A stretch of DNA of 64,000 bases from Streptomyces sp. NBC_01478. GTDB taxonomy: Bacteria; Actinomycetota; Actinomycetes; Streptomycetales; Streptomycetaceae. This document shows, in pieces, positions 5,867 through 29,588 of the stretch. The position numbers were made by a program, and so were the translations under genes. Where the stretch lies: assembly GCF_036227225.1 (NCBI RefSeq), contig NZ_CP109444.1:1984001-2048000 (forward strand). The letters are read 5' to 3'. The notes beneath the pieces were generated by a model. The model saw nothing but the letters and a program-made list of their open reading frames with translations, did not search any database and was not told where the DNA came from. How positions within the stretch are numbered: position 1 is the stretch's first letter; every line of letters starts with the position of its first letter.

Positions 5867-5914
5867 AAACCGATCGGTTTCCACCACCGTAAACCGATCG
5901 GTTTCGTCATGCAA
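5867..5914 (-). promoter_or_regulatory. Promoter P1 with two AAACCGATCGGTTT boxes
   Basis: Minus-strand promoter for the SDR ending at 5145. The -35 is TTGCAT (5909-5914), the spacer 17 bp and the -10 TACGGT (5886-5891). A perfect 14-bp palindrome AAACCGATCGGTTT (5891-5904) fills the spacer and an identical one (5867-5880) lies just downstream of the -10, 24 bp centre to centre. A bound TetR-type dimer would block RNA polymerase. Confidence 0.75.
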
Positions 5915-6241
5915 GTCGGGTTGAGCACCGGATGACGCCGGCATGCCGGGTCGAGGTGGAGTCGGGCGGAGCTCAGGCTTTGGGAGTTGGCCTCGTGTCC
6001 ATCGGCGAAGCCCGTACTCGCCCGTCGTAGGCCGGTGAAACCGCGAGCCCGCCGACAGTGATCGACGTGGCCTCGCTGGGCCTCAGGCGGAGTTCAGCGG
6101 AGTGACGTGAGGAGTGGCGTGCGGGACGGCTCGGTGTCGCCGGCACCCCCGGCCGGCCCGGGGCCGGCGACCAAGGGCAGCCGACAGCCAACGTCGCAAG
6201 GACCGCTCAAGTACGGCGGGGTGTGTGAGTGCGGTCAGGCG

Positions 6242-7063
6242 TCAGCCGGCCAACTGGTTCATCTTGCGGATCTGCCGGTCGAAGGCCCAGGCGGGAACGA
6301 AGCGGAGCAGGCGTGCCCGTCCGGCCGTGGGGCCGGCGGCGTAGCGCAGTTTCGGCTTCGCGTCGGTGGCTGCCGCGACGACCGCCCGGGCGACCACGGC
6401 GGGGTCGTCGCCGTCCCTGATCGCCTCCGCCATCACGCGGCCGACGGTCCGCCGCTGCTTCTCGTAGGCATGGAGGGGTGTGTCGGGCCGCGCGCTGTTG
6501 GTCTCGAATCCGGTGTTGGTGTAGGCGGGTTCGACGAGAAGCGCCCGGATGCCGTGGTCACGGACCTCATGGTCCAGGGACTCGGTGTAGCCCTCGACCG
6601 CGTGCTTGGAGGCGGCATAGACGGCCATGTAGGGCTGGGGCACGAATCCGACCACGGAGGAGAGGTTGATGATGCGCCCGCGCCCCTGGCCGCGCATGTA
6701 CGGCAGGACCTCGTTCACCATGCGCATGACCCCGAAGACATTGGTGTCGAAGACGCCCTGGGCCTGTTCGAGGGAGGTTTCCTCGGCCGCACCCAGTGAG
6801 CCGATTCCGGCGTTGTTGACCAGGACATCGATCCGCCCGAACCGCTCGCTCACCTCCTGGACCACTGTGGCGACCGAGGCGTCACTGGCCACGTCGAGGT
6901 CGAGGAACGTCACACCGTCGAGCGGGGCGACGCGCGAGGTGTCGCGGCCGGTGCCGACCACGTTGAATCCGGCTGCGACCAGGGCGAGCGCGGTTTCCTT
7001 CCCGATGCCGGATGACGCACCCGTCACGAGTGCCACCGGCCGGTTGTTCGTCGTCGTCATCAT
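6242..7063 (-). CDS. Short-chain dehydrogenase/reductase (SDR), paralogue of the 20.4 kb gene
   Basis: 273 residues. TGASSGIG at 14-21, NNAG near 83-86, catalytic serine near 135 and YAASK with Y149/K153. The C-terminal extension (PKLRYAAGPTAGRARLL...) resembles the SDR subgroup often labelled oxidoreductase/retinol dehydrogenase-like. Start chosen at the first of two adjacent ATGs, 18 nt downstream of an operator box. It is nearly collinear with the SDR at 20413-21228 and, like it, is divergent from a TetR gene. Substrate unknown. Confidence 0.92.
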   Translation of the reverse strand: MMTTTNNRPVALVTGASSGIGKETALALVAAGFNVVGTGRDTSRVAPLDGVTFLDLDVASDASVATVVQEVSERFGRIDVLVNNAGIGSLGAAEETSLEQAQGVFDTNVFGVMRMVNEVLPYMRGQGRGRIINLSSVVGFVPQPYMAVYAASKHAVEGYTESLDHEVRDHGIRALLVEPAYTNTGFETNSARPDTPLHAYEKQRRTVGRVMAEAIRDGDDPAVVARAVVAAATDAKPKLRYAAGPTAGRARLLRFVPAWAFDRQIRKMNQLAG

Positions 7064-7080
7064 GGATTCCCGACTCACTA

Positions 7081-7130
7081 GAAACTGATCAGTTTCCATC
7101 CACAGTAAACCGATCGGTTTCCGCGTGCAA
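7081..7130 (-). promoter_or_regulatory. Promoter P2 with paired palindromic boxes
   Basis: Drives the SDR at 6242-7063. -35 TTGCAC (7125-7130), 17-bp spacer, -10 TACTGT (7102-7107). Box AAACCGATCGGTTT (7107-7120) sits in the spacer; a variant AAACTGATCAGTTT (7082-7095, extended to a 16-bp palindrome with flanking G/C) lies downstream of the -10, 25 bp away. The symmetric change in both half-sites of the variant suggests selection for dyad symmetry. Confidence 0.75.
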
Positions 7131-7363
7131 GCTCAAACGCCAACCCGATCTTGGCCGTGCCCTCGTCTGCACGCCGAGGTCGATCGGGCTGCGCGGCGGC
7201 TGCGGCGGCTCGTTCAAGACGGGGCGGGGTGCCGCTTGCGACGCTCGGCAGACGGGAGCCCGTCTCATGGCGGTCGGCCGCCACAAGGGCCCTGCGGACC
7301 CTGCGTCCGGTCAGGCACCTTGCCGGCTGACGCAAACGGACCGGCGCCTGCCACAATGGCGGC

Positions 7364-7897
7364 ATGGCCAGGGTCAGCGCGCAAGAGAGACGCGAAAGCG
7401 TCGTCCGCGCAGCGATCGCCGAGTTCGCGCTCAAGGGCTACTACGGGACCTCCACCGAGGCGATCGCCAAACGCGTCGGCGTCACGCAGCCGTACCTCTT
7501 CCGACTCTTCCCGGGCAAGAAGGCGATCTTCGTCGCCGCGTTGGTGCGGAGTATGGAAGACACCCGGCTGGCTTTCGAGCGGGCGGCCGACGGGGCGGAG
7601 GGCGGCGAGCAGACCCGGCGTGCCATGACGGACGCGTACGCGCGGCTGATCTCGGCGCGCCCCGAGACGCTACTGATGCAGATGCAGGGATACGCCGTCG
7701 TCGCGGCCGCCGAGACAGAGGGCGACGACCAGACGGGCGAGCTCGTCCGGGCCGGCTGGATGCGACTGTGGGAAACCGTGCACCTGTCGCTGGGTGCCGA
7801 CGTCCACGAGACCACAAGCTTCCTTGCCTGCGGCATGCTCGGCAACACGCTTACGGCGATCGGGCTTTCCTCCGATCACCGGGAGGCAAGGGCGTGA
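7364..7897 (+). CDS. TetR family regulator (TetR1)
   Basis: 177 residues. Helix-turn-helix at about 15-55 (AAIAEFALKGYYGTSTEAIAKRVGVTQPYLFRLFPGKKAIF), then a short helical ligand domain. Divergent from the SDR at 6242 with a 300-bp intergenic region that contains promoter P2 close to the SDR. A decayed homologue lies in the same position next to the paralogous SDR (21396-21840). Either this protein or TetR2 (7985-8554) is the likely reader of the AAACCGATCGGTTT boxes; the sequence alone does not decide. Confidence 0.9.
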   Translation: MARVSAQERRESVVRAAIAEFALKGYYGTSTEAIAKRVGVTQPYLFRLFPGKKAIFVAALVRSMEDTRLAFERAADGAEGGEQTRRAMTDAYARLISARPETLLMQMQGYAVVAAAETEGDDQTGELVRAGWMRLWETVHLSLGADVHETTSFLACGMLGNTLTAIGLSSDHREARA

Positions 7898-7984
7898 GCC
7901 CGTGGGCGCTGCTCCGGCTGCCGGAGACTGGCATCAACCCGAAAGAGAGCTTCGGTCGCCGAGCCTGGTCGAACCCGGGGCGCG

Positions 7985-8554
7985 TCAGCGCATGTCTGCC
8001 GCGTCGAGCAGGGTGACCACGGTGGGTGCGACGAGCCCCGTCAGGTTGTCGGCCTGGATTCCGGCGCGGGCGCTGGCGCCGTCGAAGACCAGGATGAGCT
8101 GCCGGGCCAGCAGGTCGGGGTTGCTCGCCCCGCCCTGTTCGGCCTCGGAACGGAAAAAGGCTGTCAGGTTCGCTTTGATCTGGTGGGCCACCCGACTCGC
8201 GGGGTGGGTCTGGTCCTTGAGCTCGATCTGCACAGCCAGGTACCGGCAGCCCTGGAAGTCGGGCGCATCCGCCTGCGACTCCACCCGCCCGAAGACGTAC
8301 AGGATCCGCTCGCGGGGGGAACGGCCGTCATCCGCCGGGGGCAGGAGGCTCGCCCCGAAGGCGGCGGCACGCTCCTCCAAGCTCGCCGCCAGCAGTTCAT
8401 CCTTGCTCTCGAACAACTGGTACATGGAGCGCTTCGACACCCCCGCCGCCTTGCACAGCGCCTCGACGCCGATGCCGACGCCGTCGCGGTAGGTGAGCGT
8501 GGCCGCTGCCTCCAGCAGCCGCTCCCGGGGGCTTTGCTTCACTTTGGTGGTCAT
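7985..8554 (-). CDS. TetR family regulator (TetR2)
   Basis: 189 residues. Helix-turn-helix at about 12-55 (LLEAAATLTYRDGVGIGVEALCKAAGVSKRSMYQLFESKDELL), followed by a TetR C-terminal domain. A single perfect AAACCGATCGGTTT box lies 33 bp upstream of its ATG, suggesting autoregulation and making it a candidate regulator of the other five box-containing promoters. It is convergent with TetR1. A remnant of a second copy, with its C-terminal codons and the AHxIK stretch, survives at 21921-22040. Confidence 0.9.
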   Translation of the reverse strand: MTTKVKQSPRERLLEAAATLTYRDGVGIGVEALCKAAGVSKRSMYQLFESKDELLAASLEERAAAFGASLLPPADDGRSPRERILYVFGRVESQADAPDFQGCRYLAVQIELKDQTHPASRVAHQIKANLTAFFRSEAEQGGASNPDLLARQLILVFDGASARAGIQADNLTGLVAPTVVTLLDAADMR

Positions 8555-8585
8555 ACCGCGAGGTTAACTCGAATCGGACGAAAAA

Positions 8586-8601
8586 GAAACCGATCGGTTT
8601 C
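8586..8601 (-). promoter_or_regulatory. Single AAACCGATCGGTTT operator upstream of TetR2
   Basis: A 16-bp palindrome (the 14-bp box plus flanking G/C) 32 bp upstream of the TetR2 start. Unlike the paired sites it has no clear -35/-10 around it and no second perfect box; only a degenerate half site (AATCGG) lies nearer the gene. Confidence 0.65.
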
Positions 8602-8656
8602 CGTGGGGTGTCGGGAAGACACCCGTCGCCGCGCGGCCGCCTGAAGGCCGCTCAGA

Positions 8657-8696
8657 GGCTCGGTGACGGTCTCGGGGGAAAGACCGTCGCCGAGCC
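8657..8696 (-). terminator. Stem-loop downstream of the membrane protein gene
   Basis: Arms GGCTCGGTGACGGTCT (8657-8672) and AGACCGTCGCCGAGCC (8681-8696) pair over 16 positions with one wobble; loop 8 nt. It lies between the end of the ABC-2-like gene and TetR2 on the same strand. No U-run follows, as is common in streptomycetes. Confidence 0.6.
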
Positions 8697-8742
8697 CTGA
8701 TGGTGCACGTGCCTCTCGTCCCCGCAGAGGGCGCCGCGCACC

Positions 8743-8766
8743 GGGGCCACTCCGAGTAATGGCCCC
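8743..8766. terminator. GC-rich stem-loop
   Basis: GGGGCCA (8743-8749) and TGGCCCC (8760-8766) form a 7-bp stem with a 10-nt loop immediately after the membrane protein stop codon; probably part of the same transcription end as the larger hairpin. Confidence 0.45.
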
Positions 8767-8788
8767 GTCTTGAGTGAGCCGCCTTCCG

Positions 8789-10087
8789 CTACGCCGGGGC
8801 AGCGGTCTTCTCGGGCTCCGTCCCGGCGGGGATGCGATGCAGCCCCTTTCGGTCGTACCAGCCCGTCACGCCGAAGCCGAAGAGGGCGGCTGCCGCGAGG
8901 CCGACGGCCATCATGACCCAGCCCCGGGTCAGGCCGGCGTCGGCCTGGGCGTCGTAATAGAGGATCGAGCGGATGCCGCCGGTGATCTGCCGCAGTGGTT
9001 CGAACTCCGCCAGGAACCGGTAGAAGCCGGGCAGCGCCTGAAGCGGTGTGGTGGCGTTGGCCGTCGGCACCGCCATCCCGATGAAGACCAGCGTGACCAC
9101 CAGCATGCCGGGCGTGCCGAAGACGGCTAGCAGGGTCAGCGCACCGATCCCGGAGACCGCGATGGCGCACACCGAGTACAGCCACAGCAGGGGCAGATGG
9201 GCGGCGTGCATTCCCATGAGGCCGACCGCGCCCGCCATGACCAGGCTCCCCATCAGCAGGGACAGCCCGGCCATGAGAGTGCTGCTGATGGCGAGGGTCT
9301 GCACCCGGGTCGCCCGGATGAGCGGGCGGTGCAGGCGCAGCGGGCCCATGTCGTTGTGGGTGTAGCCGAGGGCGTGGTCCACCTGGCCGCTGATGACGTT
9401 GGCGGAGAGCATGCCGCAGACCACCAGGACGAGGGCGTAGTAGAACGCCGTCAGGCCCAGGCCGCTGTGCGAGTCGAGCGGATGGCCGTCCTTGACCATG
9501 ACGGCGGCCGGGTCGGCGAGCAGGACGCGGGCCGCGGCGGGCAGCTTCGCCTGCCCGGTCCCGATCTGGGACGTGAGCTCCTTGCCCACCTGGAGCGAGG
9601 CGCTTTCGGCCGCCTGTGTCGTCGCCGTCCGGGCCAGGCTGGAGCCCACGCTGCCGGCGGACTGGTTTGTCAGCACCGTCAGCGTCGGGCGGGCTGGGGT
9701 CCCAGCGGTCACGGAGGCAGTGAGTGCGGTGGTGGCGGAGGTGAAGTCGGCGGGGACGACGAGCGCGCCGTACAGCTTGCCCTTGCCGAGTTCCTCCTTC
9801 ATCTCCTTCTCGTCCATCACCTTCCAGTCGATCTTGGCCCCGCTCGCGGTGGACTTCTTGATCGACTCGGTGATCCCAGCCCCGAGGTTGACCTGCTTGC
9901 CGCCGACAGCGGCCCCCTTGTCGGCGTTGACCAGGCCGACGGGCAGATTCTTCATGTGATCGACGGGATCGATGTTGGCCCCGACGTAGAACACGGTGAA
10001 CAGCAGCGCGAGAACGCCAGTGATGACGCCATTGGCGATCCACAGGGGTTTGGCACGCAGCACGCGGAACGGGTGAATCCCACTCAT
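8789..10087 (-). CDS. DUF3533/YhgE-Pip-like ABC-2 type membrane protein
   Basis: 432 residues. One membrane segment at about 15-37, a large extracytoplasmic domain (about 40-210) with a VGLVNAD motif typical of the YhgE/DUF3533 group, then five hydrophobic segments (about 212-235, 265-295, 300-325, 330-350, 395-415). Such proteins resemble ABC-2 permeases but no ATPase is adjacent, so energy coupling is unknown. Expression is probably under promoter P3, which has two of the palindromic boxes, linking it to the SDR genes and suggesting export or tolerance of the inducing compound. Confidence 0.85.
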   Translation of the reverse strand: MSGIHPFRVLRAKPLWIANGVITGVLALLFTVFYVGANIDPVDHMKNLPVGLVNADKGAAVGGKQVNLGAGITESIKKSTASGAKIDWKVMDEKEMKEELGKGKLYGALVVPADFTSATTALTASVTAGTPARPTLTVLTNQSAGSVGSSLARTATTQAAESASLQVGKELTSQIGTGQAKLPAAARVLLADPAAVMVKDGHPLDSHSGLGLTAFYYALVLVVCGMLSANVISGQVDHALGYTHNDMGPLRLHRPLIRATRVQTLAISSTLMAGLSLLMGSLVMAGAVGLMGMHAAHLPLLWLYSVCAIAVSGIGALTLLAVFGTPGMLVVTLVFIGMAVPTANATTPLQALPGFYRFLAEFEPLRQITGGIRSILYYDAQADAGLTRGWVMMAVGLAAAALFGFGVTGWYDRKGLHRIPAGTEPEKTAAPA

Positions 10088-10239
10088 GACTTACTCCGGT
10101 CTCGGACAACACACTCATATCCGGAGAGGGGCGGACAGCTTCATTGCGGTCCGGCGACCCTCGGAACGTTCAATCTCGGCACACACGGCCGTCGACGCGG
10201 AACCGGAGATGCAGCACCCCGCCGGGACTCCGACTGATG

Positions 10240-10290
10240 AAACCGGTCGGTTTCAAGCTCATCGTAAACCGATCAGTTTACAAATTCCAA
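10240..10290 (-). promoter_or_regulatory. Promoter P3 with paired boxes, upstream of the membrane protein
   Basis: -35 TTGGAA (10285-10290), 18-bp spacer, -10 TACGAT (10261-10266) on the minus strand. Box AAACCGATCAGTTT (10266-10279) lies in the spacer and AAACCGGTCGGTTT (10240-10253) downstream of the -10, 26 bp apart. Both carry one mismatch from the perfect palindrome. The start codon is about 170 bp downstream, leaving an unusually long leader. Nothing else was seen in the 10088-10461 gap. Confidence 0.7.
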
Positions 10291-10461
10291 GTCGAGGCGC
10301 CGGCCCCTGTCCCAGCGGCGCGAGGAAGCCGATACCGTGCTCTATCCGCTCGATCGACACCGACTCCCTGCGGAGCTGGAAGTTCACGGCCAGGTCTCTG
10401 GTCGCGGGTCTATGTGATGTCGTGATCAATCCTGCCGATCGAAGCCGGTAGCAAGGCGATC

Positions 10462-10640
10462 GTGACGCGCAGGCAACTCACCGACAAGCAGGAGCAGTTG
10501 ATCGATCCGTTCCTGCCGATGGGCAAGCACGGTCCGTACCCTGAGCGGATGCGCGAGCAGTTCGGGGGGACGATCTGGCGGTTCCGCGCCAGCAGTCAGT
10601 GGCGGGAAATGCCGGGCCGGTTCGGCCGACGGTCTACCGG
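10462..10640 (+). pseudogene. IS5-family transposase N-terminal remnant
   Basis: The frame from 10462 encodes MTRRQLTDKQEQLIDPFLPM..GPYPERMREQFGGTIWRFR..SQWREMP, the standard N-terminus of IS5-type (DDE) transposases in actinomycetes. A frameshift follows at about RFG, where the expected STVYxRF continues in the next frame, and homology ends near 10640. No catalytic DDE residues remain. Confidence 0.82.
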
Positions 10641-10693
10641 GAGGCGGGGACTGGAAACCGAGCGGCGGCCACCGCGCAAGCGCCTGCCCCGGC

Positions 10694-11362
10694 TCAGGAG
10701 GGTGTGCGCGTTCGCGCCAGCTCGGCTGTTACGGCGTCGGCTACCGCATCCCTCACCTGCGCCTCCGTGGGCGTGGGCCGGCCGAGTTCGGCGGCGAGTT
10801 GAGCCAACGAGGTCATCCGGACACCGGGCAGGGCGCAGGCCGTGAACGTGGTGTAGACGTCGAGGTCCGGGTCTATGTTGAGCGCGAATCCGTGGCTGGT
10901 GACGCCGCCGCTGATGCGCATGCCGATGGAGGCGATTTTGCGGTGGCCGGGGGTCCACACGCCGACCAGGCTCTCGGCGCCTCGGGGTGTGTCCCGGCGT
11001 ATCGCCTCGAATCCGAGTGATCCCAGCGCGCGGATCAGGGCGTGCTCGATCCGGCGTATCAAGCCGCGCGGTCCCAGCTCGCGCACGTTCAGCACGAGAT
11101 ACCCGATCAGCTGCCCTGGCCCGTGATAGGTGGCATGACCTCCCCGGTCGACTTCGACCAGACTGATCGGCGAAGCCGGTTCTGGCAGTTGGTCGGCCGG
11201 TGTCCGCGCCGTGTAGGTGATCACGGGAGGGTGGGTGAGCAGAAACAGCCGATCCCCAGTACGCCCCTGCTTCCGCTCGGCCACCCAACCGGCCATGTCG
11301 GCCTGCGCCACCTCATACGGCACCTCACCCAGATCGACGCGTTCCATCTCCCCTGGCTCCAT
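10694..11362 (-). CDS. lipB: Lipoyl(octanoyl) transferase LipB-like
   Basis: 222 residues. It shows the LipB signatures RGGHATYHGPGQ (73-84), KIASIGMRI with K142, and a TACALPG segment with C176. Lysine and cysteine at these positions match the catalytic dyad known from the Mycobacterium tuberculosis enzyme. LipB transfers octanoate from acyl carrier protein to lipoyl domains. The usual genomic partner lipA is absent here, so this is probably a second, accessory copy; the neighbour on its 3' side is an IS5 scar. Start chosen at the ATG after GGGAGAGG; a second ATG lies 15 nt inside. Confidence 0.88.
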   Translation of the reverse strand: MEPGEMERVDLGEVPYEVAQADMAGWVAERKQGRTGDRLFLLTHPPVITYTARTPADQLPEPASPISLVEVDRGGHATYHGPGQLIGYLVLNVRELGPRGLIRRIEHALIRALGSLGFEAIRRDTPRGAESLVGVWTPGHRKIASIGMRISGGVTSHGFALNIDPDLDVYTTFTACALPGVRMTSLAQLAAELGRPTPTEAQVRDAVADAVTAELARTRTPS

Positions 11363-11377
11363 TGCCTCTCCCGTGTC

Positions 11378-11399
11378 TTCGAGGCGACGTCGCCTCGAA
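11378..11399. promoter_or_regulatory. 22-bp perfect palindrome upstream of lipB
   Basis: Arms TTCGAGGCGAC and GTCGCCTCGAA meet with no spacer, 16-37 bp upstream of the lipB start. It could be a repressor site, or a cruciform/hairpin in the leader. No linked regulator gene is evident. Confidence 0.5.
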
Positions 11400-11526
11400 C
11401 TGCGCCTGCGAACTCCTGGTCTGGTGTCGCCGATGAACAAACTGTGCGTCGTAGGGGCTCGGCATGCAGCCAGGTCAGGTGTTGTCACCCATGACCGCGA
11501 CCGACCACAGCCGCCTGGTGCCGGCT

Positions 11527-13228: not shown

Positions 13229-13280
13229 GTGGCAGCTCCCAAGTCGTGAGTGGGTGAGGGTGTCCGCGAGGACGGTGGAA

Positions 13281-13343: not shown

Positions 13344-13346
13344 AGG

Positions 13347-13961: not shown

Positions 13962-14133
13962 GGTGTTGGTCTCCGTTGTCGATGCGTACGAGACGACCGG
14001 ACCCAGAACTGACTGCCCCGGGCCCGGGGTGGGGAGAGAACTGCGGCTGGGTGTGGCCGTGGCGGTGCAGGCGGCTTCCGCGGGCGCATTTCGTCCACGC
14101 GCACGGAGGAAGTGGGCACACCGAAGAAGCACT

Positions 14134-18360: not shown

Positions 18361-19518
18361 TCACACGAGCCTGACGGGCCCGGCGTCGATCGGCAGGCGG
18401 ACCAGGAGATAGGGCTTGCGACGCAGGTCCTGGCCCTCGTGGAAGGGCGCCAGCCGGTCGAGTTGGTTGGCGGTGGCGTACAGGTGCCGGTCCGAGGCGA
18501 TGGACAGGGTGTCGATCCAGTTCAGGTCGCTCCCCTGGGCGAGGGTCCGGTAGGTGCCGTTCGGGCTCCTGCGCCAGATGGCGTTGTGTTCCAGGTCGCC
18601 GCCGTAGAGCCGCCCCTTGTCGTCGCTCTCCAGGCCGTCGGCCATCGGCTTGAACCCGAGATCCTCGACCGTCGCCGCCACCTCGGCGTCCGTGGTGTCC
18701 GGGTCGGCGAGGGCGTCGGTGGACACGCTGTGCAGTCGGCGGCTGGAGAGCGGGCAGTAGTAGAGGCGCGTGCCGTCGGCGCTGAGAGCGATGCCGTCGG
18801 AGCCGGTCTCGTAAGAGGTGGGCTCGCCGCCCGCGGGGCGGACCATGAAGGGCTGGCCATCGATGACCGGAACGAAGTCCGGGTCCGGGAGTGCCGAGGG
18901 GTGCCCGGTCAGTCGCCGCCAGGAGCGGCCCGTGGCGAGGTCGACCACGATGATGCCGTTGGAGCCGCCCGAGTCGGTGATGAAGGCCATGCCCTCGGCG
19001 CCGCGCCGCAGGTCGAAGCGCACGTCGTTGGGGTAGCTGTTCGCCGGCACCACCTCGGGCGGGAAGAGGATCTTCCGTACGATCCGGTCGGTGCGCAGGT
19101 CGACCGCCACGAGCTTGGGACCGCCGTAGGAGGACCCGGCGAACAGCGGGCTTCCGGTGTCGAGGATCCACAGCCGGTCGGCCGGGTCGACGACGACGCT
19201 CTGCACCGACTGGAAGTGCCCGGCCAGGTCTGAGGCGTCCTGACGGTTCACCTCGGCGTCGGGGTAGGCAACCGGCTTCCCGCCGCGCAGTTCGGCGACG
19301 GTGAACGGGACGTCGTCGCCCCAGCGGGGGAAGTTGACGAAGATGCGGCCGCGGCGCGAGACGGTAACACCCGTCGGCATCGCGCCCCAGAAGCGGGCAA
19401 CGACCTCGTAGTGACCGGCTGTTGAACCGGAGGGGGAGGCGGAGGCGGAGGCGGGTCCGGCGAGTTGGGTGGCGGCCAGCGACGCGGTGGTCGCCGTAAG
19501 GAACGTACGTCGCTTCAT
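18361..19518 (-). CDS. Exported major-royal-jelly/yellow-like beta-propeller protein
   Basis: 385 residues. Starts MKRRTFLTATTASLAATQLAGPASA, a twin-arginine signal (RRTFLT), preceded by GGAGA. The mature part contains the MRJP/yellow hallmarks: SVQSVVVDPADRLWILDTG, PNDVRFD, AFITDSGG and GIALSADGTRLYYCPLSSRRL. This family folds as a six-bladed propeller; bacterial members are uncharacterised or bind small amines/sugars. ATG chosen because upstream in-frame sequence lacks signal-peptide character. Single-gene unit. Confidence 0.88.
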   Translation of the reverse strand: MKRRTFLTATTASLAATQLAGPASASASPSGSTAGHYEVVARFWGAMPTGVTVSRRGRIFVNFPRWGDDVPFTVAELRGGKPVAYPDAEVNRQDASDLAGHFQSVQSVVVDPADRLWILDTGSPLFAGSSYGGPKLVAVDLRTDRIVRKILFPPEVVPANSYPNDVRFDLRRGAEGMAFITDSGGSNGIIVVDLATGRSWRRLTGHPSALPDPDFVPVIDGQPFMVRPAGGEPTSYETGSDGIALSADGTRLYYCPLSSRRLHSVSTDALADPDTTDAEVAATVEDLGFKPMADGLESDDKGRLYGGDLEHNAIWRRSPNGTYRTLAQGSDLNWIDTLSIASDRHLYATANQLDRLAPFHEGQDLRRKPYLLVRLPIDAGPVRLV

Positions 19519-19817
19519 GGGAGCGTCTCCTACTGGGTCAAGTTGCCGGAAGGCGCGGCGAGTTGACGCATCACCTCGGCGCGTGAGGGGGATTGGCCGG
19601 ACGTTGCCGTAGCCGGTGAGGGACGGTGCCTCCGGCAGCCGCTCCCGGGAGTCGGCTTCGCCCGTGGGGTCAGGGCGCGCCGGAGCACACCTGGGCGCCA
19701 GATACCTCGTGCGTTCCTGCGACCTGAAGCAGCCTGCCGGGGACATCGCCGGCGGCTGCCGCCAACTCCTGGAAAGGGAACGGGGCCAGACGGCCGGTGG
19801 ACCTGGTGCTCTCAGGT
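19519..19817. other. Non-coding gap, nothing recognised
   Basis: The 299 bp between the propeller gene start and the SnoaL-like gene stop (both on the minus strand) contain the promoter region of the former. No convincing gene, repeat or hairpin was recognised. Confidence 0.5.
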
Positions 19818-20412: not shown

Positions 20413-21228
20413 TCAGCCGACGAGCTTGTTCATCGTGCGGATCTGCTTGTCCAGGACCCAGGCGGGAACGAAGCGGAGCAGGCGTGCGCGTCCGGCCGTG
20501 GGGCCGGCGGCGTAGCGCAGTTTCGGCTTCGCGTCGGTCGCGGCCGTGACAACCGCCTTGGCGACCACGGCGGGGTCGTCACCGCTCTTGATCGCGTCCG
20601 CCATCAGGCGGTCGAAGACGTGCCGCTGGTCGGCGTAGGTCTGCAGGGGGGTGTCGGGCTTGGCGCTGTTGGCCTCGAACCCGGTGTTGGTGTAGGCGGG
20701 TTCGACCAGGAGCGAGCGGACGCCGTACTGCCGGACCTCGTGGTCCAGGGACTGGGAGTAGCCCTCGATCGCGTGCTTGGACGCGCCGTAGACCGCCATG
20801 TAGGGAGCGGGGATGAAGCCCTGCACGGACGAGAGGTTGATGATGCGTCCGCGCCCCCGGGCGCGCATGTGCGGCAGGACCTCCTTCACCATGCGAATGA
20901 CCCCGAAGACGTTGATGTCGAAGACGCCCTGGGCCTGCGCGAGGGAGGTCTCCTCGGCCGCGCCGATCGAGCCGATGCCGGCGTTGTTGACCAGGACGTC
21001 GATCCGCCCGAACCGGTCGATCACCTGCTGGACCACCGCGGTGACCGACTTGTCACTGACCACGTCGAGGTCGAAGAACGTCACGCCCTGGAGCGGGGTG
21101 ACACGTGAGGTGTCTCGGCCCGTGCCGGCCACCTCGAAACCCGCCGCGACCAGCGCGAGCGCGGTCTGCTTCCCGATGCCGGAGGAGGCGCCCGTCACGA
21201 GGGCCACCAGTCGATTTGTCGTCATCAT
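20413..21228 (-). CDS. Short-chain dehydrogenase/reductase (SDR), paralogue of the 6.2 kb gene
   Basis: 271 residues, collinear with the SDR at 6242-7063 along its full length (same TGASSGIG, NNAGIGS, YxASKHA and PKLRYAAGPTAGR segments). Two adjacent ATGs; the first is taken. Catalytic tyrosine and lysine are in YGASK. It has its own promoter P4 with two perfect palindromes. The neighbouring TetR1 copy is a pseudogene, so control is presumably exerted in trans by the intact regulators at 7.4-8.6 kb. Substrate unknown. Confidence 0.92.
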   Translation of the reverse strand: MMTTNRLVALVTGASSGIGKQTALALVAAGFEVAGTGRDTSRVTPLQGVTFFDLDVVSDKSVTAVVQQVIDRFGRIDVLVNNAGIGSIGAAEETSLAQAQGVFDINVFGVIRMVKEVLPHMRARGRGRIINLSSVQGFIPAPYMAVYGASKHAIEGYSQSLDHEVRQYGVRSLLVEPAYTNTGFEANSAKPDTPLQTYADQRHVFDRLMADAIKSGDDPAVVAKAVVTAATDAKPKLRYAAGPTAGRARLLRFVPAWVLDKQIRTMNKLVG

Positions 21229-21249: not shown

Positions 21250-21304
21250 AAACCGATCGGTTTCGCCTCGCCTCACTGTAAACCGATCGGTTTCCAGTGC
21301 GCAA
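21250..21304 (-). promoter_or_regulatory. Promoter P4 with two perfect AAACCGATCGGTTT boxes
   Basis: -35 TTGCGC (21299-21304), 18-bp spacer, -10 TACAGT (21275-21280). Boxes at 21280-21293 (in the spacer) and 21250-21263 (downstream), 30 bp apart. Both remain perfect although the adjacent regulator copies have decayed. Confidence 0.75.
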
Positions 21305-21395
21305 GCTCTCAAGCAGGGAACTGATCCCGGGCCACGTCATAGGCCGGCTTCAGGTCGAGCTGACCGGCGCCCGCCGGCATGGCGGCACGCACCGA

Positions 21396-21840
21396 ATGAG
21401 CAGGCAGGAGAGACGTGGGAGCGCCATCCCCGCACTGCGATCGCGAGTTCGCGCTCAAGGGCTGCTACGGCACCTCCCGAGGCGATTGCCAGGCGTGTCG
21501 GTGTCACGCAGCCGTACCTCTTCGGCGTTCGAGAGCGTGGCCAAAAGGATGAGGGGCAGCTCTGCCGAGGCGATTGCCAGGCATGTCTCGGCCCACCCCG
21601 AAACACCTCGGATGCATATGCAGGGATACGCCGTCGCGGTAGCCACCGACGCGCGGGCAATGACCAGATCGGCGAGCGTCCGGGCCGGCCGGATGAGGCT
21701 CCGGGAAACGGTGACCATGCCCTGCCGCCGGGCGCCGATGCCGACAAGACCACAGCCTCCCCCGCGCCCGGCTGCTCATCAATTCCCTTATGTTCATCGG
21801 GCTTTACCCCGGGTGCCGGGGAGCAAGGGCATCAGGTCAC
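21396..21840 (+). pseudogene. Decayed second copy of TetR1
   Basis: Nucleotide-level similarity to 7364-7897 in the same position relative to the SDR: the FALKG(C/Y)YGTS, AIA.RVGVTQPYLF, and M.MQGYAV segments are recognisable but in different frames. A 17-bp direct repeat CGAGGCGATTGCCAGGC (21478-21494 and 21566-21582) marks an internal rearrangement that replaced the codons after PYLF. Not translatable as a regulator. Confidence 0.8.
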
Positions 21841-21920
21841 GCGGGCCGTGCCGGTTACCAGAGACCGACATCAGCTCGGAGAACACATCCGTCACCGAAC
21901 CTGCCCGGAAAGGCGATACG

Positions 21921-22040
21921 TCATCGCATGCCTGCCGCATCGAGCAGGGCGGCCACAGCGAACGCGATAAGCCCGGCCTCGGTGGGAAAAGGGCGTCAGC
22001 CCTCCCTTGATCCGGTGTGCCACCTGGCTCGCAGGGCAGG
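21921..22040 (-). pseudogene. 3' remnant of a second copy of TetR2
   Basis: On the minus strand the frame ending at 21921 gives ...VAALLDAAGMR-stop, matching the TetR2 C-terminus TLLDAADMR-stop. Just upstream an ASQVAHRIKG stretch (near 22005-22040) matches TetR2 ASRVAHQIKA. About 110 bp between them in TetR2 are deleted and the N-terminal half is absent. Confidence 0.75.
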
Positions 22041-22972: not shown

Positions 22973-22995
22973 TTCTCCCCTTCGCAGAGGTGTTG

Positions 22996-23058
22996 ACACC
23001 GGTGTGCTCCGAACTGACACTCTAGCTTGTCAGTTCATCTGACACGTCAACGTGTCAG
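22996..23058. promoter_or_regulatory. Cluster of three dyads between TetR and the operon
   Basis: ACACCGGTGT (22996-23005, perfect); GAACTGACA ... TGTCAGTTC (23011-23019 and 23028-23036, 8-bp gap); CTGACACGT-CA-ACGTGTCAG (23039-23058). The last two share the element TGACA/TGTCA. The position between divergent starts fits a TetR switch. Confidence 0.7.
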
Positions 23059-23124
23059 AAGCGTGTGGGGGCCGCTTGCCGCTCAGCGGTCCGCTCGTGC
23101 CCAGGGCAAGGAAGGGGCTCGACC

Positions 23125-24036
23125 GTGGCAGCACCGCCCAAATACCCGTACACATTCAGCCGGAGAGACCGCGAGGGGCTCTCCCGCACACAACCGCTGA
23201 CCGGCCGAGTGATCGCGGTCACCGGGGCGGGCCGCGGGATCGGGCGTGCCGTCGCAGCCCGGCTCGCTGCGGCCGGAGCCGCCGTGGCGATCGGCGATCT
23301 CGACGCGGAGCTTGCCAGGGAGACGGCCGGCGCCATCGGCGCGCGTCCCGGTGGCCGACTGCTCGGGCTGTCTCTCGACGTGACCGACACTCCTTCCTTC
23401 GATGACTTCCTGCGCACCGTCGAGACCGAGCTGGGGCCGATCGACGTACTGATCAACAACGCCGGAATCATGTGGGTGGGCCCTTTCGCGGAGGAACCGG
23501 AGGAAGCCGCCCTGCGCCAGTTCGACGTCAACGTCCACGGCGTACTGCGTGGGATGAAACTCGTGATCCCGGGGATGCGGAAACGCGGGCGCGGCCACGT
23601 GGTGAACATCGCCTCCGCCGCCAGCAAGGTCGCCCCGGCGGGCGAGGCGACCTACGCGGCGACGAAGCACGCCCTCCACGGCTACAGCACAGCCGTCCGC
23701 GCCGAACTGCGCGGCACCGGAGTGCACGTGTCCCTGGTGATGCCCGGCGTCGTGGACACCGAGCTGGCCGTGGGCACCGCGACCGGCCCCACCCGGCGCC
23801 TGACGACGGATCAGGTTGCCGACGCGGTGCTCGACGTCGTGCTGCGCCCGCGGTTCGAGGTCTTCGTTCCACGCCGGATAGCAGCCCTGACCCGGTTGGC
23901 CGCGCTGCTGCCGGGCCGCGCCCGCGACGCCCTGCATCACCTCCTTGTCCCCGACCAGCTCGCCGCTCTGCCCGACCGGTCGGTCCGCGCGGCCTACGAG
24001 CAACGCACCCGGACCGCCCGCCTGCCCGAAGGATGA
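23125..24036 (+). CDS. Short-chain dehydrogenase/reductase, first gene of the diiron operon
   Basis: 303 residues. TGAGRGIG at 33-40, INNAGIM and YAATK catalytic segment, with a C-terminal extension (FVPRRIAALTRLAALLPGRARDALHHLL) that could associate with the membrane. GTG start chosen because AAGGAAGGGG lies 7 nt upstream. First gene of a tight operon with a metallo-hydrolase, an alpha/beta hydrolase, a ferritin-like protein and a reductase; likely oxidises or reduces an alcohol/ketone intermediate in the same pathway. Confidence 0.9.
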   Translation: MAAPPKYPYTFSRRDREGLSRTQPLTGRVIAVTGAGRGIGRAVAARLAAAGAAVAIGDLDAELARETAGAIGARPGGRLLGLSLDVTDTPSFDDFLRTVETELGPIDVLINNAGIMWVGPFAEEPEEAALRQFDVNVHGVLRGMKLVIPGMRKRGRGHVVNIASAASKVAPAGEATYAATKHALHGYSTAVRAELRGTGVHVSLVMPGVVDTELAVGTATGPTRRLTTDQVADAVLDVVLRPRFEVFVPRRIAALTRLAALLPGRARDALHHLLVPDQLAALPDRSVRAAYEQRTRTARLPEG

Positions 24037-24040
24037 GCCC

Positions 24041-25201: not shown

Positions 25202-26127
25202 CCGGCCCGGCCGCCCGCCGGATCGCAGGGGTCGGCGTGGAGTTGGCCGCCTACCAATGGGGAGCGTCCACGGCTCCTGCGGTGGTGCTGGTCCACGGCT
25301 ATCCGGACACCAGCGCCGTGTGGCGCCCGGTCGCCGAGCGCCTGGCCGACCAATTCCACGTCACGGCCTTCGACGTGCGGGGAGCCGGTGCCTCCCACCG
25401 GCCCAGGGGGCTGCGCGCCTATCGGATGTCCTGTCTGGAAGCCGACCTGGAGGCGGTGCTCGACGCCGTAAGCCCCGACCGCCCGGTGCACCTGGTCGGA
25501 CACGACAGGGGATCGATCCACTCCTGGGAGTCGGTCACCGGCACCCGCCTGGCCGGGCGGATCGCCTCGTTCACCTCCATCTCCGGACCCTGCCTGGACC
25601 ACGTCGGCCACCTGATCCGTGCCCGCCTCCGACCCCGGCATCCGGATCTGCCGAAGATGCTGCGACAGGCCGCACGGTCCTGGTACATCGCCTACTTCCA
25701 TTTCCCGCTCCTGCCCGCCCTGACCTGGAGAGCACTGGGACACCGCTGGCGCGCCTTCCTCACCGGCTCCCAAGGCGTGCCCGGGGACACCCCCTACCCC
25801 GCGCAGACGCTGGCCCGCGACGCCGTGGTCAGCACCGCGCTCTACCGCGCCAACATGCTGCCCCGCCTGCTGCGCCCCCGGGACCGGCGAACCACTGTCC
25901 CGGTTCAACTCATCATCCCCACCCGCGACTTCTGCGTCACCCCAGTGCTGTCGTACAGAGTGGAGCACTGGACGGGCCGGATACAACGGCGCCCGATCGA
26001 CGCCGGGCACTGGGTACAGCTCAGCCACCCCGAGGAGATCGCGTCCCGGATCGCGGAATTCGCCCACCGCATCGAGGACGGCTCCCGCCGCACTCACACT
26101 CCGGGCCACACCGCGTATCCGATCTGA
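25198..26127 (+). CDS. Alpha/beta hydrolase with aspartate nucleophile (epoxide hydrolase/dehalogenase type)
   Basis: 309 residues. HGYPD at 33-37 (oxyanion loop) and GHDRG with D103 at the nucleophile elbow, as in epoxide hydrolases and haloalkane dehalogenases; the histidine is in DAGHWVQLSHPEE near the C-terminus. ATG overlaps the MBL stop (ATGA), so the two are translationally coupled. An epoxide hydrolase would fit an operon containing a candidate diiron oxygenase. Confidence 0.87.
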   Translation: MTGPAARRIAGVGVELAAYQWGASTAPAVVLVHGYPDTSAVWRPVAERLADQFHVTAFDVRGAGASHRPRGLRAYRMSCLEADLEAVLDAVSPDRPVHLVGHDRGSIHSWESVTGTRLAGRIASFTSISGPCLDHVGHLIRARLRPRHPDLPKMLRQAARSWYIAYFHFPLLPALTWRALGHRWRAFLTGSQGVPGDTPYPAQTLARDAVVSTALYRANMLPRLLRPRDRRTTVPVQLIIPTRDFCVTPVLSYRVEHWTGRIQRRPIDAGHWVQLSHPEEIASRIAEFAHRIEDGSRRTHTPGHTAYPI

Positions 26128-26206
26128 CAGCCCAACAGACCACCAGTACTGGACGTCTGCCTGACCGCCCCTTCGCACACACCGACCGCTGACGGAGGAA
26201 CCTGTC

Positions 26207-27118
26207 ATGTTCCGAGCCGCACATGCCCACCCGGAGCGTCCGTCCGAGCCCATCGACCACCACGACCTGGTGCTGCAACCCCGGGACGTCACCTTCGACT
26301 GGGGCACCACCCCGCTGCACTGGCTGCCGGGTGAGCCCTTCGCGACCCACACCTTCGATGTGCTCCACCTCATGCTCCCCGAACTCGAACGCTGGTTCGT
26401 GCGCACCTTCGAGCAGGCACTGCCACTGATCACCGACGACCGGCTGCGCGAGGACGTGCGCGGTTTCATCGGCCAGGAAGCGATGCACGCCGAGGCGCAC
26501 CAGGAGGTCCTGGAGCACCTGCTCGCCAAGGGGCTGGACCCGACTCCGTACACCCTGCAGTCCGAATGGATCTTCCGCAGGGTGCTCGGAGACCGGCCGG
26601 AGCTGACACCGGCCGCCACCCACGCGCACCTCCTCCAACGACTCGCCCTCATAGCGGCCTTCGAGCACTTCACCGCGTACATGGGTCACTGGATTCTCAG
26701 CAACGGGCACCTGGACCAGGTCGGCGCGGACCCCGCGATGCTCGATCTGTTCCGCTGGCACGGCGCGGAAGAGGTCGAACACCGCTCGGTCGCATTCGAC
26801 CTGCTGGTGCACCTCGATCCCCGCTACCGGCGCCGCGTGGTCGGCATGCTCGTCACCGCTCCGGTGCTGACCCGGTTGTGGATCCGCGGAGTCCGCTTCC
26901 TGATGAGCGCCGACCCCGAACTCGACGACCGGGTCAAGGTCCGCTTCCGCGACTACCTGGCCGCGGCCCGCAAGGACCTGTTGCCCCCGCCGGTCTCGTT
27001 CGCCCGCTCGGTGCTGCGCTACTTCCGCCCCGGCTACCACCCGACCCAGGAGGGCTCGACCCAGCAGGCGGTCGCCTACCTGGCGGCGTCCCCTGCCGCC
27101 CGAGCGGCTGCCCAGTGA
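26207..27118 (+). CDS. Ferritin-like putative diiron protein (predicted metal-dependent hydrolase, PF10118 type)
   Basis: 303 residues. Usually annotated 'metal-dependent hydrolase'. Ligand-like residues appear in the order expected for a four-helix diiron carboxylate site: E59/E61 in LPELERW, E91-x-x-H94 in GQEAMHAEAH, E153 in AAFEHFTAYMGH, and E189-x-x-H192 in AEEVEHRS. ATG after GGAGGAA. It sits directly upstream of a flavin/[2Fe-2S] reductase gene (23 nt), which suggests a redox-active enzyme fed with electrons rather than a hydrolase. Substrate unknown. Confidence 0.85.
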   Translation: MFRAAHAHPERPSEPIDHHDLVLQPRDVTFDWGTTPLHWLPGEPFATHTFDVLHLMLPELERWFVRTFEQALPLITDDRLREDVRGFIGQEAMHAEAHQEVLEHLLAKGLDPTPYTLQSEWIFRRVLGDRPELTPAATHAHLLQRLALIAAFEHFTAYMGHWILSNGHLDQVGADPAMLDLFRWHGAEEVEHRSVAFDLLVHLDPRYRRRVVGMLVTAPVLTRLWIRGVRFLMSADPELDDRVKVRFRDYLAAARKDLLPPPVSFARSVLRYFRPGYHPTQEGSTQQAVAYLAASPAARAAAQ

Positions 27119-27141
27119 CCCGGCAACCAGCAAGGCCTCCC

Positions 27142-28242
27142 ATGAACACCATCACATCCGTCACCCGGCCGCCGGACCTGTACGGCAGGCCGCGCAGCGA
27201 CTCCTTCATGCAGAAGCTGGCGGCTTTCAGCGACAACGCGGTCACGCGCCTCGCGCGGCGCAGCACTCCTCCCCGGCGTCCGCCGGCCACCGAGATGCCC
27301 GTGATCCGGGAACTGGTGGTCGCCACCAAGCACCAAGAGGCCGAGGACGTCGTCTCCCTGCGGCTGGCAGCACCCGACGGGTCGAAACTCCCGCCCTGGC
27401 AGCCCGGCGCCCACATCGAACTGCACCTGCCCTCCGGCCGCAAGCGGCAGTACTCCCTGTGCGGCGACTCCGCCGATCGGTACCGGTACCGCATCGCGGT
27501 GCGCCGCGTCGCCAACGGGGCAGGCGGTTCGGCCGAGGTGCACGACACCCTCGGAGAGGGCATGAGGGTCGCCATCTCCGGGCCCCGCAACGCCTTCCCC
27601 TTCGCCGCAGAGGCATCCATCCTGCTCATCGCGGGCGGCATCGGCATCACCCCCATCCTGCCGATGGCCCGAGAAGCCGCCCGCCGCGGGCTGGACTGGA
27701 GGCTCGTGCACACCGGCCGCAGCCGCGCCTCGATGCCCTTCGCGGCAGAACTGGCCGAACTCGCGGCCGCAGCCCCTGGCCGGGTCTCCATCCGTCCTGA
27801 CGACGAGTCCGGCGTGCCCGAAACAGCCGATCTGTTGAACTTGAGCCCGGCGGCGGGTGCGGTGTACTGCTGCGGGCCCGCGCCCATGATCGACGGCGTT
27901 CGGCGCGCGTTCGGTGACAGCCGCGCGTCCGCCCTGCACTTCGAGCGTTTCGCCCCGGCCCCGATCACGGACGGCCGTCCCTTCGAACTCCAACTGGGCG
28001 ACACCGGACGGGTTCTGCCGGTGCCGTACGACCGCTCCGCCCTGGATGTTCTCCAGGAGGCACTGCCGGACCTGCCCTTCTCCTGCCGCCAGGGGTTCTG
28101 CGGCACCTGCCGGGTACGGGTGGCCCAGGGCCATGTCGATCACCGTGACCGCCGGCTCACCGCCACCGAACGCGCGGCCGGCGCCATGCTGCCCTGCGTC
28201 TCACGTGCACCGGAAGGAGAGCGGTTGGTGCTGGAGGTGTGA
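27142..28242 (+). CDS. Phthalate-dioxygenase-reductase-type oxidoreductase (PDR/VanB family)
   Basis: 366 residues. FMN motif RQYS (102-105), NAD-binding GGIGITP near 172-178, CCGP segment, and C-terminal plant-type [2Fe-2S] ligands C315, C320, C323 and C352 (CX4CX2C...C). The N-terminal ~50 residues form an extra Arg-rich extension. Passes electrons from NAD(P)H to an oxygenase component. No Rieske oxygenase is nearby; the adjacent ferritin-like protein is the best candidate acceptor. Last gene of the operon. Confidence 0.92.
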   Translation: MNTITSVTRPPDLYGRPRSDSFMQKLAAFSDNAVTRLARRSTPPRRPPATEMPVIRELVVATKHQEAEDVVSLRLAAPDGSKLPPWQPGAHIELHLPSGRKRQYSLCGDSADRYRYRIAVRRVANGAGGSAEVHDTLGEGMRVAISGPRNAFPFAAEASILLIAGGIGITPILPMAREAARRGLDWRLVHTGRSRASMPFAAELAELAAAAPGRVSIRPDDESGVPETADLLNLSPAAGAVYCCGPAPMIDGVRRAFGDSRASALHFERFAPAPITDGRPFELQLGDTGRVLPVPYDRSALDVLQEALPDLPFSCRQGFCGTCRVRVAQGHVDHRDRRLTATERAAGAMLPCVSRAPEGERLVLEV

Positions 28243-28374
28243 GCGATGTCCGAGCGCCCGTCGAGGAAGTCTTGCGTGACGCCGTCAGAGGGGTCTGCAC
28301 GGTGAGCGGTGTAACTCTTGCGCTGGAAGCGGCAGTTGATGACTGACGTGACGAGTGACACCGAGGCCCGGAAG

Positions 28375-28466
28375 GCTGCCTCCTGCAACATCTGACCAAG
28401 CGGGTGCTGGAGTCTGCGCCGGACGGCGAGCTCACTGATCATCTGGGGCACGAGTCCGGTGAGCGG
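28375..28466 (+). pseudogene. IS256-family (mutator) transposase fragment
   Basis: About 30 codons (LLQHLTKRVLESAPDGELTDHLGHES) match the N-terminal region of IS256-type transposases. It is cut on both sides and ends where the antisense IS701 fragment begins. Confidence 0.72.
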
Positions 28467-28469
28467 GCC

Positions 28470-28747
28470 GAGGGTGGCCGGCGGATTCGGCCCGTTGCCA
28501 GCCGTTCTTGCGGCCGACCGGGCCGAGCAGGGGCACGGACGTAGTCCCGCATACGGCGTCGCAGCTCCGCGCGGCCGAAGCGGTGGCCGACGCGGAGAAA
28601 GAGGTCTTCGAGTTCGCGGTCCCAGGTGGTGTCCGCAAGGTCGTCGATCACGTTGGGAGACTGCCAGGATCGCACCGCGGCCAGTTCTGGTATCGACTCC
28701 TTGGAGGGGCGGTCCGCCAAGACCGCCCCTGACACGCCATCAGCCAA
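28470..28747 (-). pseudogene. IS701-type transposase N-terminal fragment
   Basis: Frame from 28747 encodes IDDLADTTWDRELEDLFLRVGHRFGR..LRRRMRDYV; the following LLGPVGRKNGWQ is found one frame over, so a frameshift lies near 28540. This is the standard N-terminus of IS701-like (DDE) transposases, with all catalytic parts lost. A 10-bp stem (28705-28730 region) lies at its start. Confidence 0.78.
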
Positions 28748-28789
28748 CTACACTCCGCCGGCTCATCCGACTCCGTTGCGATGCGGGTT

Positions 28790-29161
28790 TCAAGGCTTGA
28801 GCACCGCCAGTACATCGTCGAGCGAAACGTTGGCGGGGTCACTCATATCGAGACCATCGAACGTCTGCCAGACATAGGACGCCGTCCCGTTCTCCCGCAG
28901 CGGATGGAAGTCGGCCAAGTCCGGAGCGTCCCGGAACTTGTTGAACGCCTCTTCGGACTCCCATTCGACGACAAACAGAACCTGCCGTGGCGCGAGGTCA
29001 CCGGCTACGGTGTCTCGGAAACGACCAAACGCCACCATTCGACCACCGTATTGCGGAGCCTCTTCAGGCAAACGGCGGAAGTACGCGAGGTACTTCTCCA
29101 AATCGGCCACGTCAAACATATTCAGGGCGTAGAACTTCTTCTTCTGTGAATTCGCACTCAT
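28790..29161 (-). CDS. DUF1330 family protein
   Basis: 123 residues: KKKFYALNMFDVADLEKYLAYFRRLPEEAPQYGGRMVAFGR, then FVVEWESEEAFNKFRDAPD, the pattern of small ferredoxin-fold DUF1330 proteins (YxxYxxxxxxxxxxyGGxxl and W.s.eaa..f..). ATG preceded by GGAGAGGG. It is downstream of a decayed SDR and promoter P5 on the same strand. GC content at silent sites appears somewhat lower than in neighbours, which may reflect transfer. Function unknown. Confidence 0.85.
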   Translation of the reverse strand: MSANSQKKKFYALNMFDVADLEKYLAYFRRLPEEAPQYGGRMVAFGRFRDTVAGDLAPRQVLFVVEWESEEAFNKFRDAPDLADFHPLRENGTASYVWQTFDGLDMSDPANVSLDDVLAVLKP

Positions 29162-29189
29162 TGCCAATACCCTCTCCGGTATCAGGAAA

Positions 29190-29470
29190 CTGGCGTTCGC
29201 TGCTCTAGGCGGGCGCGGGGCACCGGCGGCAGGACGCGCGCATTGTTGATGATGATGTTGACGTCGATCGCGACTTGCGTCATCTCGGAGACCGACTGTG
29301 AAGAACGCACTTCCGGCGCTCGGGCGAAGACTGAGGCCGCGGGAATCCGGCGACGCTTCCCGTGCCATTGGGTACACCTTTCCGGCCCCGTGCGGCACAC
29401 AGCCTCGTCGACCAACGCCGCACCGAGACCCCCGCAGCCACTATCGACGGAGTACCAGGGCGGCTGCCTT
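29190..29470 (-). pseudogene. Frameshifted SDR remnant downstream of promoter P5
   Basis: Three minus-strand frames in order give LGAALVDEAVCR, then GAGKVYPMAREASPDSR, then VAIDVNIIINNARVLPPVP. These line up with IGKMLVEELYAR, GAGKVYATTRD and AQDVTILINNAG of the SDR at 5145-5846. The part before the glycine motif and everything after NNA are lost, leaving roughly the first third of an SDR. Confidence 0.65.
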
Positions 29471-29541
29471 TTGCGTCGCACGGGGAAGCCATCCGCACTC
29501 CTAAGCAATGGGGGTCGGAACCCGCCCGCCTCCACAGCGAG

Positions 29542-29588
29542 AAACCGATCGGTTCCCTCAGCGTAAACCGATCGGTTTTCGCACGCAA
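29542..29588 (-). promoter_or_regulatory. Promoter P5 with paired boxes, orphaned
   Basis: -35 TTGCGT (29583-29588), 17-bp spacer, -10 TACGCT (29560-29565). Box AAACCGATCGGTTT (29565-29578) in the spacer; AAACCGATCGGTTC (29542-29555, one mismatch) downstream, 23 bp apart. It now drives an SDR remnant and perhaps the DUF1330 gene 380 bp further on. Confidence 0.72.

Follow-up and report, generated by a model that had tools for sequence, protein, structure and literature searches.

The 64-kb window (the whole 64,000-nucleotide stretch of DNA that was analysed) carries a repeated promoter with a palindrome inside it, which raises the question of what reads these sites and whether a single regulator serves them all. 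As claimed in the original prediction, five minus-strand promoters share one design: a TTG-N17/18-TACNNT promoter, an AAACCGATCGGTTT-type box that fills the spacer, and a second box downstream.

5867 to 5914, minus strand: module 1, TTGCAT-N17-TACGGT; box 2 5867-5880, -10 5886-5891, box 1 5891-5904, -35 5909-5914
7082 to 7130, minus strand: module 2, TTGCAC-N17-TACTGT; box 2 7082-7095 (two mismatches), -10 7102-7107, box 1 7107-7120, -35 7125-7130
10240 to 10290, minus strand: module 3, TTGGAA-N18-TACGAT; box 2 10240-10253 (one mismatch), -10 10261-10266, box 1 10266-10279 (one mismatch), -35 10285-10290
21250 to 21304, minus strand: module 4, TTGCGC-N18-TACAGT; box 2 21250-21263, -10 21275-21280, box 1 21280-21293, -35 21299-21304
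29542 to 29588, minus strand: module 5, TTGCGT-N17-TACGCT; box 2 29542-29555 (one mismatch), -10 29560-29565, box 1 29565-29578, -35 29583-29588

The final T of the palindrome is also the first T of the -10 element, and the start-to-start distances between the boxes are, in module order, 24, 25, 26, 30 and 23. Scanning the window for AAACCGATCGGTTT identified 11 boxes with no more than two mismatches (seven exact, three with one and one with two), starting at 5867, 5891, 7082, 7107, 8587, 10240, 10266, 21250, 21280, 29542 and 29565. The remaining four of the 15 matches listed had three mismatches each; shuffled controls, also allowing up to three mismatches, gave a mean of 0.88 and a maximum of 4 matches. 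Housekeeping (HrdB-type) promoters have a TTGAC-like -35, a TANNNT -10 and a spacer of 17-18. By sequence, the predicted module promoters conform to this type, and the operators overlap the predicted target promoters at all five modules. An Rfam scan of the window gave no matches.

The following genes lie behind the modules.

5145 to 5846, minus strand: SDR1, target of module 1 (NF006119, PRK08264.1-5 subfamily, 368.6 bits)
6242 to 7063, minus strand: SDR2, target of module 2 (NF004823, PRK06179.1 subfamily, 389.4 bits)
8789 to 10087, minus strand: YhgE/Pip-like membrane protein (TIGR03061), target of module 3
20413 to 21228, minus strand: SDR3, which shares 79% identity with SDR2; target of module 4
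28790 to 29161, minus strand: intact DUF1330 protein behind the SDR remnant, probable working target of module 5
29230 to 29450, minus strand: SDR remnant of about 70 residues behind module 5

Of the targets named previously, the SDR genes and the SDR remnant were found, but the membrane protein, described as ABC-2-like, is YhgE/Pip-like. With 95.2 bits it falls just short of the curated TIGR03061 cut-off of 96.15, and a module-type arrangement also precedes four Pip homologs elsewhere. The remnant shares 31-34% identity with SDR-A proteins (when compared within a small set, E about 1e-5). Module 5 probably drives the intact DUF1330 gene behind it; in another locus (L058), a DUF1330 homolog begins 62 bp behind the module.

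A palindrome frequent at random positions across the genome would have counted against the prediction. The 12.12-Mb genome contains 15 sites with at most one mismatch to AAACYGATCRGTTT, compared to one for the reversed-pattern control. The window contains 11 of them; a second locus (10.48 Mb) has three more, and one is a stray. We rejected the idea of a randomly frequent sequence. The second locus encodes an SDR and a broken tetR, so that the window's TetR2 (see below) probably serves both loci.

The likeness of the modules could still result from recent duplication only, the copies having had no time to diverge and being under no selection. The SDR2 and SDR3 modules indeed sit in a duplicated block (84% identity over 906 columns by blastn), and two of the five modules are therefore not independent. 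Judged by its sequence, one further stretch represents the decayed regulators of this block:

21362 to 21974, no strand assigned: remains of TetR1 and of TetR2's end (81% across 165 blastn columns, 71% across 396)

But the recurrence of the module across the genus argues against duplication as the sole cause. Of 295 congeners, 75 contain the pattern AAACCGATCGGTTTACNNT and none its reversed control; the 146 sites of the pattern yielded 144 distinct modules after sites less than 45/140 bp from a locus end and identical contexts had been dropped. As TACNNT was itself searched for, finding it conserved adds no independent evidence. The pattern contained neither the TTG, which is present at 17 or 18 nt in 132 of the 144 modules, nor the second box, found in 134; nine of the 12 modules without TTG also lack the second box. 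Flanking positions mostly carry 0.05-0.3 bits, whereas CTTGC and GG beside the box reach about 0.9-1.5 bits. Moreover, the 81 modules with less than 55% flank identity still keep the TTG in 76 cases and the second box in 76. The modules also precede unrelated gene families, namely two deeply split SDR groups, alpha/beta hydrolases, a 4Fe-4S protein, YhgE/Pip, DUF1330 and a metallo-beta-lactamase-fold protein (23 of the 144 modules, which had no gene call in the 400 bp downstream, were left out of this assignment). We therefore rejected mere duplication, which we regard as extremely improbable, and the flank information and the low-identity modules bear out the view that boxes and promoter elements are kept under selection while flanks differ. 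In a phylum-level sample of 296 genomes, the exact 14-mer was detected in six of nine congeners and two of 287 others. One of these two (G326, locus L256), in which no TetR2 or SDR homolog was found, is probably a chance occurrence. A plasmid collection search matched one of 72,556 records, at 58% identity.

Two TetR-family proteins encoded in the window are candidates for reading the boxes.

7364 to 7897, plus strand: TetR1, divergent from SDR2
7985 to 8554, minus strand: TetR2, proposed reader, differing from PDB 3jsj in 20 of 188 aligned residues
8561 to 8600, minus strand: tetR2 promoter; box 8587-8600 overlaps the putative -35 (8584-8589), putative -10 TAACCT at 8561-8566

The single box expected ahead of TetR2 is thus present. 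Six bases separate the putative -10 from the ATG, and the tetR2 mRNA is probably leaderless. TetR2 has an N-terminal TetR_N helix-turn-helix (PF00440, 36.2 bits, cut-off 24). When 11 candidates were scored per genome, a TetR2 match (E<=1e-50) was obtained for all 75 module genomes, which are thereby nested among the TetR2 genomes, and for eight of the 220 others (Fisher 1.7e-61, a value that ignores relatedness and overstates independence because the species are related). In six of these eight, boxes with at most one mismatch adjoin tetR2, as determined by coordinate subtraction; the remaining two are G147, which has a stop within tetR2, and G168, with a three-mismatch box beside a broken SDR. 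Among the best 80 of 152 loci, all from named genomes, a box ends 32 bp (78 loci) or 33 bp (one) ahead of the tetR2 start in 79; in the sole exception (L194), no box was found even when three mismatches were allowed. The tetR2 promoter is conserved among 78 ortholog promoters. In the fetched loci, 71 of 80 TetR2-like ORFs have a box upstream and nine have none in reach. The recognition helix SKRS(M/L/V)Y was found in all 69 helices located by pattern among 77 proteins (eight were not located). Eight distant homologs (38-45% identity) with the helix ARRSLY have TAGAMC..TCTA-type boxes instead. In another family (L271), a 34% homolog with SKRTLY occurs with two boxes next to an SDR, one matching AAACCGATCGGTTT and one differing from it at a single position.

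TetR1, alone or jointly with TetR2, might also read the boxes. It is divergent from SDR2 with a box pair in between, a box lies no more than 250 bp from 10 of the 19 TetR1-like ORFs of the fetched loci, and all 11 genomes with its close clade (>=71% identity) carry the module. However, this clade is confined to 11 of the 295 congeners and absent from 64 of the 75 module genomes, and many of the 179 genomes (out of 295) that have its remoter paralogs (E<=1e-40) lack the module. Furthermore, its recognition helix (TQPYLF) is unlike that of TetR2, and the nearest box in the window is 243 bp from its start. TetR1 was rejected as main reader on its distribution; any role in reading the boxes, alone or as a helper of TetR2, seems very unlikely to us, and it is probably a passenger or a target. 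By sequence comparison, it is TetR2 that fits both the genome distribution and the putative autoregulatory site. The earlier suggestion that a TetR protein reads the module, and that one regulator reads all sites, has thus gained support, and TetR2 very probably controls all five promoters.

The variable distance between the boxes had been taken to indicate independent dimers. Such binding is possible, but the distance is not freely variable: among the 134 two-box modules it is 23-26 in 93, 29-35 in 41 and 27-28 in none. The gap, here at 27-29, is also present after dereplication (81 modules, of which 76 divide into 45 short and 31 long), and the class switched at least five times on the SDR tree. 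Two dimers that cooperate in a set geometry, as a dimer pair or small loop, would agree with these observations. We consider this doubtful, since the separation of the classes is not a whole number of turns, the long class is broad, and at 76 of 80 loci the tetR2 promoter has a single box, none further appearing in the 90 bp examined. Spacing also clusters by gene family, so common descent explains much of it. Equally tentative is the proposal of a genus-wide standardised -35/box/-10/box cassette, recruited to unrelated families and scattered loci rather than copied with the gene, in which two spacings are permitted and a forbidden 27-28 bp zone reflects paired TetR2 dimers sharing the DNA with RNA polymerase.

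The reading we hold with high confidence is that housekeeping-type promoters are controlled by one dedicated, autoregulated TetR-family repressor, TetR2, which would be released by a ligand. With AAACCGATCGGTTTA-type DNA as its predicted binding site, one TetR2 dimer on the box in the spacer and another on the downstream box, which coincides with the expected transcription start or lies just behind it, would exclude RNA polymerase, and the box over the tetR2 -35 would let TetR2 repress its own gene. If TetR2 bound a small molecule, probably one that the SDR or hydrolase enzymes take as substrate, it would leave its sites, and the SDR, YhgE/Pip and DUF1330 genes would be switched on together.

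A TetR clade with a solved structure (3jsj) thereby receives a proposed operator and regulon as well as a proposed autoregulatory promoter, in a system present in about a quarter of the sampled Streptomyces genomes. The targets are mostly SDR and hydrolase enzymes, which can now be tested as members of a single pathway. Distant homologs have a different regulator-operator pair, and the TetR2/operator pair could be used in Streptomyces as an orthogonal switch.

The regulator-site pairing appears to be new, and the promoter design ordinary. No paper on the 14-mer operator and no mention of PDB code 3JSJ was found in the literature searched. This putative TetR-family regulator is in practice the same family member as TetR2, but represents a structure only. 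In the accessible part of one report (PMC7022988), the measured 16-bp consensus of Thermus thermophilus TTHB023 (PfmR), (a/c)Y(g/t)A(A/C)YGryCR(g/t)T(c/a)R(g/t), admits the Streptomyces core ACCGATCGGT. Compared by eye, the inner 10 bases of GAAACCGATCGGTTTC fit but the outer three on each side do not, so we rejected membership in this regulon, whose targets there are fatty-acid metabolism genes. In TetR-tetA, with its divergent operators, a dimeric TetR repressor acts on two palindromic operators over promoters and is autoregulated, according to the sections available from PMC3511530. The system proposed here from sequence shares the features of such a repressor, but its operator has another sequence, its enzyme targets lie at dispersed loci, and each target promoter has an operator within its spacer. 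As far as the same text describes it, Streptomyces coelicolor SCO7222/SCO7223 combines a TetR-family regulator with three repeats of TGGAACGNCGTTCCA (PMC3511530). Both systems have palindrome repeats ahead of an oxidoreductase-type gene, but SCO7222/SCO7223 has another operator and a divergent neighbour as target, compared to six promoters at two loci here.

The original prediction placed five copies of one promoter design on the minus strand, and both its box positions and the repeated design were borne out. The window holds 11 boxes with at most two mismatches to the 14-bp palindrome, compared with a mean of 0.88 boxes at up to three mismatches in shuffled sequences, and all five promoters pair TTG with TACNNT across a spacer of 17 or 18 nt. 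The contig, at 12,124,816 bases the scope of our genome-wide search, holds the window at 1984001-2048000 (G000:C1) and contains 15 sites with at most one mismatch to AAACYGATCRGTTT, 11 of them inside the window, versus one for the reversed control. Sites at 10,484,642 and 10,484,674 form a sixth full module upstream of another SDR (73.6% identity to SDR1), and a box at 10,487,761 precedes a broken relative of TetR2, the proposed reader of the boxes. Opposite-strand genes separate this SDR from the broken relative. A lone stray box at 6,933,596 has TACNNT on neither side, and no box at up to two mismatches lies near the window SDR genes 23065-24036 and 33998-34855.

Stretches referred to in the text
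L016 6643-10152 (G000:C1:10484642-10488151): second locus of this genome, with the sixth module, its SDR and the broken relative of TetR2, preceded by a box of its own
Window 21362-21974: decayed copies of TetR1 and of the TetR2 end next to SDR3, the product of a block duplication
L271 4636-6319: TetR2 homolog (34%) with two boxes beside SDR genes

Sequence comparison shows that the SDR2-TetR1-TetR2 block and the SDR3 region arose by duplication, with 84% identity over the SDR part; the SDR3 copy retains its gene and module alongside decayed regulators. Elsewhere in the window, an ORF matching DUF4096 (IS4/5-type transposase, 34.4 bits; 10462-10845) lies directly upstream of module 3, a 461-aa ORF (18361-19746) has a 118-bit match to PF03022 (major royal jelly protein), and one ORF (55275-57089) ends in response-regulator and LuxR-type domains.

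We then considered 295 congeners, 75 of which carry AAACCGATCGGTTTACNNT (146 sites), while the reversed pattern gave no match among them. The loci compared were 110 stretches covering 141 sites outside the genome under study, and architecture was counted on 144 distinct modules. Because TACNNT was part of the search pattern, its conservation is no independent test; neither TTG nor the second box was included. TTG is present at a 17-nt spacer in 107 modules and at 18 nt in 25, and at neither in 12. A second box (up to three mismatches) was found in 134/144 modules versus 8/864 control windows. After dereplication to <55% flank identity, TTG and the second box were each kept in 76/81 modules. 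The operator consensus is G(G)AAACCGATCGGTTTC.

The predicted variation in box-to-box distance was confirmed, but free variation was not: start-to-start distances fall into two classes, 23-26 bp (93 of 134 modules) and 29-35 bp (41), with none at 27-28 bp. The class tracks gene family (for instance, 4Fe-4S modules, 8/8 at 23; hydrolase modules, 19/21 at 24), yet in the tree built from 85 SDR proteins, whose bootstrap is not fully settled, it switched at least five times.

A called gene lies within 400 bp of 121/144 modules; the remaining 23 have no assigned target. SDRs account for 85 modules, in two groups (64 and 21) split by very long branches. The other targets, assigned by Pfam from one representative per kind except for YhgE/Pip, are alpha/beta hydrolases (21 modules and one further module), 4Fe-4S-domain proteins (8), YhgE/Pip (4), DUF1330 (1) and a metallo-beta-lactamase fold protein (1). 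The predicted SDR-like remnant at module 5 is indeed there, but an intact DUF1330 gene stands behind it; in L058, another of the compared loci, a DUF1330 homolog directly follows the module, 62 bp away.

With 11 candidates scored per genome, TetR2 was matched (E≤1e-50) in 83/295 genomes. By set comparison these include all 75 module genomes; no module occurs in the other 212 (Fisher, 1.7e-61, relatedness ignored). Six of the eight TetR2 genomes without an exact module carry boxes at up to one mismatch. G147 and G168 have none at this threshold; G147 has a stop in tetR2, and G168 has a box with three mismatches and its SDR in pieces. TetR1 at ≥71% identity occurs in 11/295 genomes, every one with a module, and at E≤1e-40 in 179/295.

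Among the top 80 of 152 named loci, a box ends exactly 32 bp before tetR2 in 78 and 33 bp before it in one; L194 has no box there. Across the fetched loci, 71/80 TetR2-like ORFs have an upstream box. In all of these 78 loci with the box at 32 bp, TAACCT lies six bases ahead of the ATG, and therefore the tetR2 mRNA is probably leaderless, with the box covering the -35. The named loci belong to Streptomyces (74), Nonomuraea (4), Actinomadura (1) and Streptacidiphilus (1). Since TetR2 of Nonomuraea and Actinomadura is ~84% identical and has the same box at 32 bp, movement between genera is suggested. One of 72,556 plasmid records contains a relative.

Read from sequence, the pairing of recognition helix and operator matches the prediction of a TetR2-box partnership. 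The clade helix is SKRS(M/L/V)Y in 69/69 helices located by pattern (77 proteins examined). Eight distant homologs (38-45%, L261-L268) with the helix ARRSLY have, by eye, TAGAMC..TCTA-type boxes in the same region; these upstream boxes are paired, a sister regulator-operator pair. In L271, which comes from a different family within the class, a 34% homolog with the helix SKRTLY adjoins AAACCGATCGGTTT and ACACCGATCGGTTT.

The established behaviour of TetR-family repressors is the basis for the mechanism proposed here. TetR2 dimers bound at the spacer and start-site boxes would block access of RNA polymerase, negative feedback would come from the box over the tetR2 -35, and a ligand would free TetR2 from all sites. 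Two TetR2 matches are listed for this genome, one of them broken, and therefore a single protein probably serves both the window and the second locus.

In the literature searched, with subscription papers mostly outside its scope, we found neither the 14-mer operator nor a mention of the code 3JSJ. Aligned over 188 residues, TetR2 and the putative TetR-family regulator in PDB entry 3jsj differ at 20 positions. The nearest known operator is that of TTHB023 (PfmR of Thermus thermophilus; PMC7022988), which has the inner ten bases in common with our box.
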